Source: Paracoccaceae bacterium (GTDB lineage: Bacteria > Pseudomonadota > Alphaproteobacteria > Rhodobacterales > Rhodobacteraceae). Taken from it: a stretch of 39,054 bases of DNA. Below the pieces are notes generated by a model. The model saw only the letters and a list, made by a program, of their open reading frames with translations. It did no database searches and had not been told where the DNA came from. A program made the translations under genes and the position numbers. Shown in pieces: positions 35,742-39,054 of the stretch. The stretch lies in contig SKYA01000076.1 in assembly GCA_007128135.1 (NCBI GenBank), positions 1 to 39,054 of the forward strand, written 5' to 3'. The first letter of the stretch is position 1. The number at the start of each line of letters is the position of its first letter.

Positions 35742-36497
35742 CTAGCCGGTCGCCCCGGGGCGCGAGGTTGGCCGCGCACTGCGGCGCGCGCGGATTTCGC
35801 CACCAAGGTCCAAGGTATAGCTGGCAAGGGCATCCATGGCGGCATTGGCGGCGGTCAGGTCGCCTTCGGCCAATGCGGTCGCAAGCGCCTGATGCAGGTC
35901 CGTGATCTGCGCGCGCGATCTTGCGGTGAAGGTGATCATGTTCATCAGCGGCTGCATGGCCTCGACCGCGCCGGCCATGTGCCATGACAGGACCGGATTG
36001 CCGGTCGCATCGACAAGAGCGCGGTGAAAGGCGACATCCGAGGCACAGAATTCCTCGTCTGTCAGCCCGTCGGTGCCCTGCCGTGCAATCTCGGCGCGCA
36101 TGCTGGCAAGATGCGCGGGCGTGCGCCGGGCGCAGGCCAGCGGCAGGCAGGCGCGTTCCAGCGCAAACCGCGCCTCGACGGCGGTCTCGAAATCGACCGT
36201 GTTCATGGACAGCAGCAGCGTTGCCGTCGTGACCATATGCTCCTGCGCCTGCTCGAAGCTCGGCCGGGTGACGAAGGCGCCGCCCGTCGCGCCGCGCTGG
36301 GTGCGGATCAGGTTCTGCGCGGCCAGCCGTTTCAGTGCCTCGCGCACCGTGGGGCGTGAGACATTGAACCTTGTCGCGAGATCGGCCTCGGAGGGAAGCC
36401 GCCCGTCAACGGGCAGGTCGCCCGAGATGATGGCATCGCGGATGTTCTCCGCAATCTGCTGGGAGTAGTCGCGCGCGCTGTCGAGATCGGTTTTCAC
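35742..36497 (-). CDS. GntR-family regulator, FadR/FCD subfamily (candidate DmdR)
   Basis: The 251-residue repressor has an N-terminal winged helix (about 10-75; LPSEADLATRFNVSRPTVREALKRL, broken here for length, then a GATGGAFV wing) and a C-terminal all-helical FCD ligand domain (about 95-225, with FHRALVDATGNPV and a later histidine in DLHQALATALAEGD). I prefer the GTG at 36497, which has AGGG 8 bases upstream; a TTG at 36524 would place the start inside an operator copy. It is divergent from the DUF2182-DUF1326-dmdA-acuI genes. In roseobacters a GntR gene sits beside dmdA, so it likely controls DMSP demethylation. The ligand is unknown. Confidence 0.9.
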   Translation of the reverse strand: MKTDLDSARDYSQQIAENIRDAIISGDLPVDGRLPSEADLATRFNVSRPTVREALKRLAAQNLIRTQRGATGGAFVTRPSFEQAQEHMVTTATLLLSMNTVDFETAVEARFALERACLPLACARRTPAHLASMRAEIARQGTDGLTDEEFCASDVAFHRALVDATGNPVLSWHMAGAVEAMQPLMNMITFTARSRAQITDLHQALATALAEGDLTAANAAMDALASYTLDLGGEIRARRSARPTSRPGATG

Positions 36498-36511
36498 CTT
36501 GCTGCCCTGCA

Positions 36512-36526
36512 ATATGTCAGACAATT
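36512..36526. promoter_or_regulatory. second operator copy for the GntR regulator
   Basis: ATATGTCAGACAATT repeats the first 12 bases of the palindrome at 36554-36568, 42 bases away (four helical turns). It lies just upstream of the GTG start of the regulator gene, overlapping the alternative TTG start, and is well placed for autoregulation. Confidence 0.5.
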
Positions 36527-36553
36527 AACAATTGCCGGATCCTGATTGGTCTG

Positions 36554-36568
36554 ATATGTCAGACATAT
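36554..36568. promoter_or_regulatory. palindromic operator candidate
   Basis: ATATGTC-A-GACATAT is a perfect 7-base inverted repeat with a one-base centre in the divergent gap between the GntR gene and the DUF2182 gene. The GT-x3-AC core agrees with FadR/FCD-type operators. It is the strongest palindrome in the gap and lies 41 bases before the DUF2182 start. Confidence 0.65.
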
Positions 36569-36608
36569 ACGACCCTCCCTGCCCCGCCAAGCCCAAAGGT
36601 CGCCCCAC

Positions 36609-37385
36609 GTGCAGTTTGCCCCGCGCCTTCGCAGAATGACCGCGCCACACTGGCTGGGGCTGTATGCGGCGATCCTGCTGGCCTGGGCGTTATTATACGC
36701 GATGCAATTGCCGCCCGATCTGGTGGCGGCGGCCAGCCTCTATGGCTCCGGGTTCTGGGAAGCGCTGTGCCGGGTGGAGCCGGGGCTGGCAAGCGCGCCG
36801 AATATCTTTCTGATGTGGGCGCTGATGTCGGCGGCGATGATGGCGCCCACGGCGCTGCCTGCCTTTGCGACATGGGACGATCTGGTGCAGACCGGCCCCG
36901 CGGCGGGATTCGGGCTGCTGGCGGGCGGGTATCTGCTGGTCTGGCTGGGTTTCGCCGCGCTGGCCACGGGCGCGCAGCTTGCGCTGGCGGGCGCCGGGAT
37001 GCTGAACCCGCTGGGCGAGAGCGCAAGCCTCTGGCTGAGTGCCGCATTGCTGGCGGGCGCCGGGGCGTATCAGTTCTCGGCCCTGAAAAACGCCTGCCTG
37101 TCGAAATGCCGCCGCCCGCTGACATTCTTCATGCAACACTGGCAGGATGGGCCGTGGCGCATGGGGTTGCGGCTGGGCGCGGCCTGTCTGGGCTGCTGCT
37201 GGACGCTGATGATGCTGGCCTTTGTCGGTGGCACCATGAACCTGATGTGGATGGGCGGCGCAATGGTGCTGATGATGCTTGAAAAACTGCCGGGCATTGG
37301 CGCGGTGGTGACGAGACCCCTGGGCTATGGGCTGTTGGGGCTGAGCGCGGTTGTCGTGATTTCGGGACTGGGAGGATGGATATGA
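36609..37385 (+). CDS. DUF2182 cysteine-rich polytopic membrane protein
   Basis: This 258-residue inner-membrane protein has about six to seven hydrophobic helices. It belongs to DUF2182 (COG5486, predicted metal-binding membrane protein). Diagnostic features are MWALMSAAMMAPTALP near 73-88, the loop YQFSALKNACLSKCRRPLTFF with a C-x3-C motif near 152-172, and GAACLGCCWTLMMLAFVGGTMNLMW, containing a C-x2-CC cluster. The start is GTG at 36609 with AAAGG 9 bases upstream; an ATG at 36636 is possible. Its stop overlaps the DUF1326 start (ATGA). It is the first gene behind the putative operator and opposite the GntR gene. Function is unknown. Confidence 0.88.
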   Translation: MQFAPRLRRMTAPHWLGLYAAILLAWALLYAMQLPPDLVAAASLYGSGFWEALCRVEPGLASAPNIFLMWALMSAAMMAPTALPAFATWDDLVQTGPAAGFGLLAGGYLLVWLGFAALATGAQLALAGAGMLNPLGESASLWLSAALLAGAGAYQFSALKNACLSKCRRPLTFFMQHWQDGPWRMGLRLGAACLGCCWTLMMLAFVGGTMNLMWMGGAMVLMMLEKLPGIGAVVTRPLGYGLLGLSAVVVISGLGGWI

Positions 37386-38029
37386 GCGAGACACTGGACA
37401 AACCCGCTGTGGGAACAGTGCCCTGGGCGATCAAGGGCGAGTTGATCCTGAACTGCAACTGCACGGTGTTCTGCCCGTGTGTGGTCTCTCTGGGCAAGCA
37501 TGCCCCGACCGAGGGTTATTGCCAGGCATGGGCCGGCGTGCGGATCGACAGCGGGCATTACGGCGCGGACGACCTGTCGGGGCTGAATGTCGGGCTGCTG
37601 CTGGAAATCCCCGGCCTGATGGCGCGCGGCAACTGGCAGGCTGCGGCCTTCATCGACGAGCGCGCCTCGGAGGGCGCCTATGAGGGGCTTGTACATATCT
37701 TCTCGGGGGCGGCGCGGGGCACGACGGGGCTGTTCGGGATGCTGGTCAGCGAGTTTCTGGGCGCCGAGCGCGCGCCGGTGTCCTATGAAGCCGACGGCAA
37801 GACGCGCCGCCTGATGGTGGGCAAGAAGATTCAGGGCGAGGTCGTCCCGGTGCAGGGCGCGGACCCTGACCGCGACATTGTCGTCACGAATACCGAATAC
37901 TGGATGGGGCCGGATATTACCGTGGCCACCGCCACCAGGGGCCGTGTGCGTGCCTTTGGCCGGGTGTGGGATTTCGACGGGCGCAGCGCCGAGATCTGCC
38001 AGATCGACTGGAAAGGACCGGGTCGGTGA
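37382..38029 (+). CDS. DUF1326 domain protein with CxC/CPC cysteines
   Basis: The 215-residue protein has no signal peptide or membrane segment and is probably cytosolic. A cysteine-rich N-terminal site stands out: C25-x-C27 and C31-P-C33 in LILNCNCTVFCPCVV, then C47 in TEGYCQAW. This suggests thiol chemistry or metal binding and is the hallmark of DUF1326, whose function is unknown. DUF1326 and DUF2182 genes are often adjacent, as here. The ATG at 37382 has GGAGGA 6 bases upstream and overlaps the DUF2182 stop; an ATG two codons earlier is less likely. Its stop overlaps the dmdA-like GTG start (GTGA), linking all three in translation. Confidence 0.88.
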   Translation: MSETLDKPAVGTVPWAIKGELILNCNCTVFCPCVVSLGKHAPTEGYCQAWAGVRIDSGHYGADDLSGLNVGLLLEIPGLMARGNWQAAAFIDERASEGAYEGLVHIFSGAARGTTGLFGMLVSEFLGAERAPVSYEADGKTRRLMVGKKIQGEVVPVQGADPDRDIVVTNTEYWMGPDITVATATRGRVRAFGRVWDFDGRSAEICQIDWKGPGR

Positions 38030-38961
38030 GCCTGCCGCTGATGGCCCCTTCGCGGCGGTTGCGACGCACGCCCTTTTCCGAGGGGGTCGAGGCCGCAGGC
38101 GTCAAGGCCTATACGGTCTATAACCACATGCTTCTGCCGACCGTGTTTCGCTCGGTCGAGGAGGATTATCACCACCTGAAAGCCGCCGTGCAGGTCTGGG
38201 ACGTGGCCTGCGAGCGGCAGGTGGAACTCCGCGGGCCGGATGCCGGGCGGCTGGTGCAGATGCTGACCCCGCGCGACCTGCGCGGCATGCTGGCGGGCCA
38301 GTGCTGTTATGTGCCGATTGTCGATGAAACCGGCGGCATGCTGAATGACCCCGTGGCCGTGAAACTGGCCGAGGATCGCTGGTGGATTTCCATCGCTGAC
38401 AGCGACCTTCTGTATTGGGTCAAGGGGCTGGCCTATGGCTACCGGCTGGATGTGCTGGTCGATGAGCCGGATGTCTCGCCGCTGGCGGTGCAGGGGCCAA
38501 AGGCCGATGTGCTGATGGCGCGTGTCTTTGGCGATGCGGTGACGCGGCTGCGCTTCTTCCGTTTCGGGCACTTCGACTTTCAGGGCCGCGACATGGTGAT
38601 CGCACGCTCGGGCTATTCCAAGCAGGGCGGGTTTGAAATATACGTCAACGGCACGGATATGGGCATGCCGCTCTGGACTACGCTTATGGAGGCGGGGCGC
38701 GATCTGGATGTGCATGCCGGCTGCCCCAACCTGATTGAGCGCGTGGAGTCAGGGCTGCTGAGCTATGGCAACGACATGAGCGACGACAACACGCCCCATG
38801 AATGCGGTCTGGGCCGGTTCTGCAACACTCAGAGTGCGATCGGCTGCATCGGGCGCGATGCGCTGTTGCGCGTGGCCAGGGAAGGGCCGGTACAGCAGAT
38901 CATGCCGCTTGCGATTGACGGGCCACGCGCGGCACAGGTTCAGGCAGCATTCTGGAACTAG
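38026..38961 (+). CDS. dmdA: DMSP demethylase DmdA-like (GcvT family), C-terminally short
   Basis: DmdA transfers a methyl group from DMSP to tetrahydrofolate, leaving methylmercaptopropionate. The 311-residue protein follows the roseobacter DmdA pattern closely: RRTPFSEGVEAAGVKAYTVY (14-32), VQVWDVACERQVELRGPDA, DETGGMLNDPVAVKLAED, SPLAVQGPKAD, RSGYSKQGGFEIYV with the conserved E204, and NLIERVESGLLSYGNDM. DmdA is normally about 360 residues. Here the chain ends shortly after VAREGPVQQI with PRAAQVQAAFWN, which looks like the normal C-terminal end joined after a missing stretch of about 50 residues. It starts at GTG overlapping DUF1326, with AAAGGA upstream. Activity is doubtful. acuI follows after 16 bases. 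Confidence 0.8.
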   Translation: MSLPLMAPSRRLRRTPFSEGVEAAGVKAYTVYNHMLLPTVFRSVEEDYHHLKAAVQVWDVACERQVELRGPDAGRLVQMLTPRDLRGMLAGQCCYVPIVDETGGMLNDPVAVKLAEDRWWISIADSDLLYWVKGLAYGYRLDVLVDEPDVSPLAVQGPKADVLMARVFGDAVTRLRFFRFGHFDFQGRDMVIARSGYSKQGGFEIYVNGTDMGMPLWTTLMEAGRDLDVHAGCPNLIERVESGLLSYGNDMSDDNTPHECGLGRFCNTQSAIGCIGRDALLRVAREGPVQQIMPLAIDGPRAAQVQAAFWN

Positions 38962-38977
38962 GACAAGGGAGAGGACT

Positions 38978-39054
38978 ATGAGCTTCAACGCACTTCTGGT
39001 CACGAAGGATGACGAGGGCAAGACCCATGCTGCCGTCACGCAGATCAGCGATGA
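38978..39054 (+). CDS. acuI: acrylyl-CoA reductase AcuI (5' part, runs off the window)
   Basis: Only the first 25 codons are present: MSFNALLVTKDDEGKTHAAV and then TQISD. This matches the N-terminus of AcuI, a zinc-free MDR-family reductase that converts toxic acrylyl-CoA to propionyl-CoA. A strong site GGGAGAGG lies 3-10 bases before the ATG. In Ruegeria pomeroyi acuI is co-transcribed with dmdA, and the order here is the same. Its product also serves the acrylate made by DddL, whose gene is at the other end of the window. Confidence 0.85.
   Translation, partial: MSFNALLVTKDDEGKTHAAVTQISD

Follow-up and report, generated by a model that had tools for sequence, protein, structure and literature searches.

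Contig SKYA01000076.1 of the Paracoccaceae bacterium assembly GCA_007128135.1 is the stretch of DNA analysed here, over its whole length of 39,054 nucleotides, and is termed the window below. Near its end a divergent gntR-type regulator gene, an operator motif, a gene pair encoding a DUF2182 membrane protein and a DUF1326 protein, dmdA for dimethylsulfoniopropionate (DMSP) demethylase and the start of acuI for acryloyl-CoA reductase lie in order within positions 35742-39054 (Table 1). Profile scores place both proteins of the pair in their families, the cut-offs being 28.7 bits for PF09948 (match over residues 67-247) and 25 bits for PF07040. The sequence-only reading had the pair and dmdA joined by overlaps, and these are present: ATGA at 37382-37385 links DUF2182 and DUF1326, and at 38026-38029 the GTG start of dmdA overlaps the DUF1326 stop as GTGA. 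Within the DUF1326 frame there are two ATGs, one at 37376 and another, preceded by GGGAGGA, at 37382. The operon exceeds the coordinates given in that reading, since the contig ends inside acuI, its fourth gene, which starts at 38978.

Table 1. Features of the DUF2182-DUF1326-dmdA-acuI locus, in window coordinates.
Feature	Position	Strand	Remarks
GntR/FCD-type regulator gene, divergent	35742..36524	-	start TTG or further in; PF00392 66.5 bits, PF07729 74 bits
Operator copy 1, TGTCAGACA	36515..36523	.	at 5' end of regulator gene
Operator copy 2, TGTCAGACA inside TATGTCAGACATA	36557..36565	.	between regulator gene and DUF2182
DUF2182 (PpoB2 family) membrane protein, 258 aa	36609..37385	+	PF09948 190.9 bits
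DUF1326 protein, 217 aa (215 aa with the start at 37382)	37376..38029	+	PF07040 171.9 bits
dmdA, GTG start, 311 aa, lacking 59 aa near the C-terminus	38026..38961	+	NF009133 579.6 bits
Deletion junction in dmdA, single remaining GACGGGCC	38917..38924	+	DNA alignment with sister genes
acuI (acryloyl-CoA reductase), 5' end, 77 bases	38978..39054	+	aligns with acuI starts of L203, L204, L206, L207 and L211

The linkage of the pair to dmdA was assessed in a family sample of 248 genomes from 247 genera, one genome being drawn per genus. The DMSP demethylase profile NF009133 scores over its cut-off in 106 of these genomes, while PF07040 and PF09948 match 126 and 131, respectively. The sequence-only reading had proposed a survey of relatives, and their neighbourhoods prove not to be random. 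In 81 of the 106 dmdA genomes, corresponding to 81 of the 116 dmdA genes over the cut-off, DUF1326 is found no more than 5 kb from dmdA (the other 35 genes have no DUF1326 at that distance), and in all 81 it is upstream of dmdA on the same strand. DUF2182 comes before DUF1326 in 79 of these cases in our own gene maps, and in the remaining two (loci L159 and L164) by Pfam places. The gaps between DUF1326 and dmdA fall into three groups, of 45-329 bp (35 genes), 545-818 bp (39) and 1501-1702 bp (7). According to the maps, gaps of middle length usually contain a gene of the DinB family, and the longest ones a gene for a dmdB-like acyl-CoA ligase. The layout can thus be written as gntR<, operator, DUF2182>, DUF1326>, [dinB or dmdB], dmdA>, acuI>. 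There is almost no room for doubt that DUF2182 and DUF1326 belong to the DMSP/acuI operon as its first two genes.

The maps combine our own open reading frame calls with hidden Markov model calls, made at a 50-bit threshold from profiles built on the loci themselves, so that paralogues may carry a label; some contigs end inside mapped loci. Of the 147 PF07040 places, 144 are covered by 140 stretches together with the window, those outside being on small contigs (G122:C122, G180:C150 and G122:C167). By order and distance the 144 were assigned to type A (DUF2182 then DUF1326; 112 places) or type B (the reverse; 27), leaving 5 unclassified. In these assignments L159, called type B, is a map error and L164 is unclassified, both being dmdA loci with the usual DUF2182-first order by Pfam; L075 (score 173), called type A, looks like type B; and the list of type A genomes without adjacent dmdA includes L093, which the maps leave unclassified. 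Genomes with a type A pair carry dmdA in 88 of 114 cases, as against 18 of 134 others (Fisher p 3.6e-25, a guide only as the genomes are related).

The regulator and its motif are shared as widely. Of the 79 type A loci next to dmdA, 65 have a divergent gntR upstream, and the motif TGTCNGACA precedes DUF2182 in 64 of the 74 regions with gntR in the stretch. Single-base shuffles of those regions, with a fixed 300-bp region around the assumed start, gave a mean of 0.34 and a maximum of 2 (50 shuffles). Like the window pair, that of many relatives stands behind one regulator and operator. The two copies of TGTCAGACA in the window could themselves be due to chance, as two or more arose in 8 of 100 shuffles; the operator is taken as real because the motif is conserved in relatives, not because of its copy number. 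The dmdA loci lacking an adjacent pair number 35; of these, 20 were read, including two whose genomes have a pair elsewhere. In three (L311, L312 and L321) gntR, the motif, dmdA and acuI are kept and the pair is cleanly missing, and L320 keeps the same order with the motif absent. A further five (L315, L316, L318, L329 and L330) have the motif up to 2.1 kb before dmdA, but without gntR or acuI; in the rest of the 20 it was not found close before dmdA. On one small contig (L332, genome G160), a GntR gene and the operator-like TGTCTGACA are accompanied by a DUF2182 fragment, a partial SBP56 gene and genes resembling those for a ferredoxin and an enoyl-CoA hydratase, the last two named from protein starts only.

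In Ruegeria pomeroyi, DMSP is reported to raise the expression of dmdA and acuI fusions about tenfold and acrylate fourteenfold, with no induction by methylmercaptopropionate (MMPA) (PMC3338564). From the position of its gene and from the motif, we infer that the GntR protein here responds to acrylate. A gene for a cupin-type DMSP lyase is present on the window contig itself (3941-4621, + strand; PF16867 132.7 bits, cut-off 27), some 32 kb away from the gntR gene of the dmdA operon, suggesting that this genome can probably make acrylate from DMSP itself. In the family sample PF16867 shows no association with the pair among dmdA genomes (42 of 88 with type A, 9 of 18 others, p 1.0) and a slight one among those lacking dmdA (14 of 26 against 37 of 116, p 0.043); a link between pair and lyase, judged on the cupin-type PF16867 only and with DddP, DddD and DddY not searched, is too weak to use.

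The sequence-only reading tied the pair to demethylation, which the wider set of loci does not bear out. Among the 80 type A loci with dmdA, 71 have acuI downstream and 40 have dinB. The 32 without dmdA, L075 included, have acuI downstream in 24 cases, one of them the doubtful L075, and divergent in two (L090 and L103, with gntR between), so that 26 still adjoin acuI; some of the others with neither gene stop at the contig end. Counted by genome, dmdA over the cut-off is absent from 26 with a type A pair, one of which, G014, has a dmdA-like gene in place. Since the pair stays by acuI without dmdA, and dmdA occurs without the pair, the link of the pair is not with demethylation itself, and what type A loci have in common is the acuI cluster rather than just dmdA. 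It is the position of acuI that is informative here, not its presence, as TIGR02823 matches 225 of the 248 genomes. On a quick DUF1326 tree of 112 loci (80 with dmdA, 28 without, 4 unscored), a neighbouring dmdA switches between present and absent at least 18 times, a number that may be too high for a quick tree of a short protein. Two variants bear on DUF2182 itself: type A locus L226 has one in-frame stop codon in this gene, and at L337 (G219) DUF2182 stands alone directly before acuI, followed by usp, bcct, at5 and phr, with no PF07040 match in G219.

The overlap of DUF2182 and DUF1326, real in the window, is not a general trait of the relatives. Out of 112 type A loci at most, 16 have an A or G before a TGA stop of DUF2182, making ATGA or GTGA possible, and general translational coupling of the two genes was rejected. 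Such a base precedes a TGA stop of DUF1326 more commonly at its junction with dinB (40 of 50) and in 12 of 37 cases at its junction with dmdA. The DinB-family gene is downstream of DUF1326 in 52 of the 112 type A loci (for example L157:7058-7579, + strand) and is the next recognised gene in 50. The one such protein scanned matches PF05163 with 78.2 bits and PF04978 with 25.2 bits, under the cut-off of 27, and has weak mycothiol-S-transferase similarity. The DinB-family protein may serve as a thiol transferase when cells respond to acrylate. Behind the cluster at5, a photolyase gene and others often follow.

Type B loci, apart from L159, have no dmdA. An acuI-like gene occurs near L075, L084, L091, L102 and L105 in no fixed arrangement. 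Four others (L064, L111, L114 and L115) adjoin a TetR-like regulator (c31) and an alpha/beta-hydrolase-like protein (c29), both named by eye, in what is possibly a second functional context of the pair.

The arrangement is not confined to the family. In a class sample of 357 genomes, dmdA exceeds the cut-off in 31, of which 27 are outside the family; the dmdA loci of all but one of the 27 were read. Two of these 26 have the pair immediately before dmdA, the stretches first read reaching 1.5 kb beyond dmdA so that pairs farther away would be missed. In G579 (L335), from another family, the order is gntR, motif, DUF2182, DUF1326, dmdA, dmdB, acuI; in G438 (L336), from a third, DUF2182, DUF1326, dmdA and dmdB are found with neither gntR nor motif. 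Identities to the window proteins are 77% for DUF1326, 73% for DmdA and 55% for DUF2182 in G579, and 73%, 58% and 42%, respectively, in G438. At L295 (G280), also outside the family, two weak DUF1326-like frames (21 and 34 bits) lie directly before dmdA and are possibly a diverged or broken third case. Among the best 80 of 582 DUF1326 relatives, the nearest are from Natronohydrobacter, Roseinatronobacter, Rhabdonatronobacter and further Rhodobacteraceae; others are from Roseovarius, Jannaschia, Yoonia vestfoldensis SKA53 and Silicibacter lacuscaerulensis ITI-1157, and a few records labelled Nocardioides or Sphingomonadales are taken as misnamed. Of the two strains named, ITI-1157 (Ruegeria lacuscaerulensis; L271) has the pair together with gntR and dmdA, and SKA53 (L242) has it with no dmdA in the stretch covered.

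Invariant residues of the kind that bind soft metals are kept in both proteins. In an alignment of 60 DUF2182 sequences, M69, M73, M77, M78, C163, C167, C193, C196, C197, M201, M215 and M222 are invariant, forming the motifs M69xxxM73xxxM77M78 (MxxxMxxxMM), C163xxxC167 and C193xxC196C197W..M201. In a second alignment of 110 type A and 27 type B rows, whose numbering is four higher, M73, M77, M81, M82, C167, C171, C197, C200, C201 and M205 are kept at 0.99 or above; M215 and M222 of the first alignment are not kept in type B, where they are mostly I and V. Among 53 aligned DUF1326 sequences the invariant residues are C27, C29, C33, C35 and C49, giving the pattern C27xC29xxxC33PC35 (CxCx3CxC) and a further Cys, and all five are kept in type B at 0.96 or above. 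The cysteine clusters seen in the window alone are thus as originally described in both proteins, with C49 now added.

Loop charges in DUF2182 suggest its orientation. The N-terminus (mean K+R 2.3) and the C163-C167 stretch (K+R 3.6, D+E 2.6) are basic whereas the stretch 33-62 is acidic (K+R 1.5, D+E 3.3), which by the positive-inside rule would put the first two in the cytosol. The methionine ladder is at the start of helix 63-94, on the periplasmic side in the predicted topology. DUF1326 has no signal peptide evident by eye and should be cytosolic. The structural model of DUF2182 is confident (predicted local distance difference test, pLDDT, 88; predicted template modelling score, pTM, 0.82) while that of DUF1326 is poor to fair (pLDDT 64, pTM 0.69). 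By sequence, no relatives of known structure were found for DUF2182, and for DUF1326 there were three matches, at E 0.19-0.22.

MxxxM is the motif of CTR-type copper transporters. PF09948, formerly DUF2182, is now the Pfam family PpoB2 (COG5486), and PpoB2 is reported to transfer copper to the tyrosinase PpoB1 (PMC2855505). The functions of both families had been called unknown; this stands for DUF1326 but not for DUF2182, and the suggested copper link gains plausibility from the same report. It is on the copper transfer by PpoB2 and on the CTR-type motif that we base a copper path through DUF2182. By this analogy and the conserved residues, the metal handled by the pair is probably a soft one, most likely Cu(I). 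The reading we prefer, one that falls a little short of probable, is that the two proteins handle Cu(I) in the membrane and in the cytosol, as a module of an acrylate- and DMSP-responsive operon.

On this reading, the arrival of DMSP or acrylate would cause GntR to release the operator, so that the pair is made together with DmdA and AcuI. DUF2182, in the inner membrane, would offer Cu(I) a path running from the methionine ladder near the periplasmic side through one cysteine pair in mid-membrane to another at the cytosolic face, and Cu(I) would there be handed to, or taken from, the CxCx3CxC site of cytosolic DUF1326; either direction is conceivable. The pair would keep copper in hand while acryloyl-CoA uses up thiols and while methanethiol or dimethyl sulfide, two soft ligands of copper, arise. 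We tentatively suggest protection under acrylate or thiol stress as its purpose. It is rather doubtful, if conceivable, that DMSP and acrylate degraders carry a dedicated transmembrane Cu(I) relay (a Met-Met-Cys-Cys path with a five-cysteine cytosolic partner) guarding copper balance against acryloyl-CoA and soft sulfur ligands, with the type B relay, in reversed order, serving other pathways.

Several observations weigh against the copper module. No copper enzyme was seen in the operon, nor a tyrosinase among the recurring gene clusters of the loci, so that the analogy with PpoB2 is one without its client. The CxCx3CxC site could also hold zinc or an iron-sulfur cluster. A fold search with the DUF2182 model (pLDDT 88) gave no convincing solved counterpart, and the weaker DUF1326 model (pLDDT 64) a weak match to acetoacetate decarboxylase (E 1.2e-3, TM score 0.36), making it possible that DUF1326 is an enzyme. 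As to the DMSP setting, the stretch lacks gntR in 37 of 111 regions, and TGTCNGACA is absent from all 37; 18 of the 106 dmdA genomes have no type A pair, which is therefore dispensable for carrying dmdA; and type B loci have the same cysteines with no fixed link to dmdA or acuI, so the metal chemistry is wider than the DMSP role.

The most serious alternative is metal-free. Acrylate or acryloyl-CoA would be captured, or damaged thiols reduced, by the five invariant cysteines of DUF1326, and these cysteines would be renewed by DUF2182 through transmembrane thiol-disulfide exchange. The loyalty of the pair to acuI where dmdA is absent agrees with this, as does the DinB-family gene with its weak mycothiol-S-transferase similarity. 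However, such a thiol and electrophile module would leave both the invariant MxxxMxxxMM of DUF2182 and the published copper role of the PpoB2 family unexplained, and we consider it fairly unlikely. It is also possible to see the pair as a passenger with some unrelated house-keeping role, carried by inherited gene order. Most cases do come from one family and the gene order is in part inherited, as the frequent presence of at5, photolyase and other genes behind the cluster indicates. Yet the pair is first behind the motif, diverges from acuI with gntR between at L090 and L103, recurs in two other families and has the changing association with dmdA described above, all of which makes the passenger explanation unlikely.

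Copper delivery to a specific copper enzyme, as by PpoB2 for tyrosinase, would have its natural client in MtoX (SBP56), the methanethiol oxidase further down the demethylation route. MtoX is reported to be copper-dependent, its own SCO1/SenC gene adjoining it in many genomes (PMC5739008). SBP56 is found in 60 of the 114 type A genomes against 22 of 134 others, in 7 of 26 against 13 of 116 when only genomes without dmdA are compared (p 0.057), and within 15 kb of DUF1326 in two genomes (G043 and G240). Among dmdA genomes, on the other hand, there is no link (53 of 88 with the pair, 9 of 18 without, p 0.44), and 54 of the 114 type A genomes have no SBP56 match, including the window genome, which is 95.4% complete. 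The association over the 248 genomes is thus mostly explained by dmdA; supply of copper to methanethiol oxidase was rejected and delivery to a dedicated enzyme appears improbable. Just as improbable is the suggestion of the sequence-only reading that the pair handles methanethiol from demethylation, or a metal bound to it: strong co-occurrence with dmdA, and the 9 type A loci (of 112) that have dmdB as one of the next three genes recognised, are set against the 26 type A genomes lacking dmdA over the cut-off and the reported failure of MMPA, unlike acrylate, to induce the R. pomeroyi fusions (PMC3338564).

The locus can be compared with several known systems. The PpoB2 protein of Marinomonas mediterranea is, like the window DUF2182, a transmembrane member of the PF09948 family, and the reported copper transfer is that of PpoB2 (PMC2855505), whose partner is a tyrosinase; here the partner is DUF1326, in a dmdA-acuI operon with no copper enzyme seen. 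In R. pomeroyi DSS-3, dmdA is followed by acuI in the DMSP/acrylate pathway, as here, and the operon is reported as acrylate-inducible (PMC3338564). Its dmdA/acuI promoter is described as lying in a 350-bp fragment ending within dmdA (PMC3338564), so that no pair intervenes between promoter and dmdA there, unlike the 81 of 106 family dmdA genomes where the pair comes before dmdA. The operon of a lyase gene and the TetR-type AcuR shares acuI and acrylate induction but differs in its regulator and in that lyase gene, and DUF2182-DUF1326 are not mentioned in this connection in the available text of PMC3338564. The mtoX-SCO1/senC-mauG cluster likewise sets copper handling beside DMSP sulfur metabolism, but with another chaperone family and, in R. 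pomeroyi, an IclR-type regulator (PMC5739008); the window genome, as stated, has no SBP56 match. At L339 (G066), SBP56 starts 73 bp after a pair-less dmdA on the same strand, directly coupling demethylation to methanethiol oxidation.

The breakdown of DMSP counts among the main steps in the sulfur cycle of the ocean, and through this operon many bacteria of marine type degrade DMSP and detoxify acrylate, its toxic by-product. The model operon has been treated as dmdA-acuI (PMC3338564), and two further genes precede dmdA in those 81 genomes, mostly behind the same regulator and motif. This linkage was not found in the open-access literature, subscription papers, where it may be noted, not being covered; nor is it mentioned in the available portions of PMC3338564, PMC4334477, PMC5395565 and PMC5739008. 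No paper on DUF1326 or DUF2182 by name was found in the open-access literature either. Within that literature the combination of the pair with the dmdA-acuI operon is new, the parts being known families. Were the pair to handle copper, DMSP degradation and copper biology would be linked in a way not found there, and a relay of the kind outlined would tie copper availability to the marine organosulfur cycle. DUF1326 and PpoB2 now have a likely inducer and an operator motif, together with a set of partner genes in environmental strains that can be cultured, making their function directly testable.

The dmdA gene of the window is shorter than its relatives. Its product scores 579.6 bits against the NF009133 cut-off of 410, at the level of an equivalog, with a match spanning profile positions 4-309 of 369 rather than the full length. 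Sister dmdA genes in the same place at L203, L204, L206, L207 and L211 encode 370-373 aa, and DNA alignment shows 177 bp to be missing in frame from the window and from none of the five. Two copies of GACGGGCC, 177 bp apart, bound the missing stretch in L203 and L204, while one copy is left in the window, which points to a deletion of the slipped-repeat type. The protein is a DmdA with a 59-aa deletion near the C-terminus, which may or may not still be active; the deletion may be either real in cells or an assembly fault. An in-frame deletion in an ordinary DmdA rules out the earlier proposal that the short protein acts on another methylated compound. A second GcvT-family gene is present in the window genome (G000:C73:4052-5128, + strand), scoring 370 bits against NF009133, under the cut-off.

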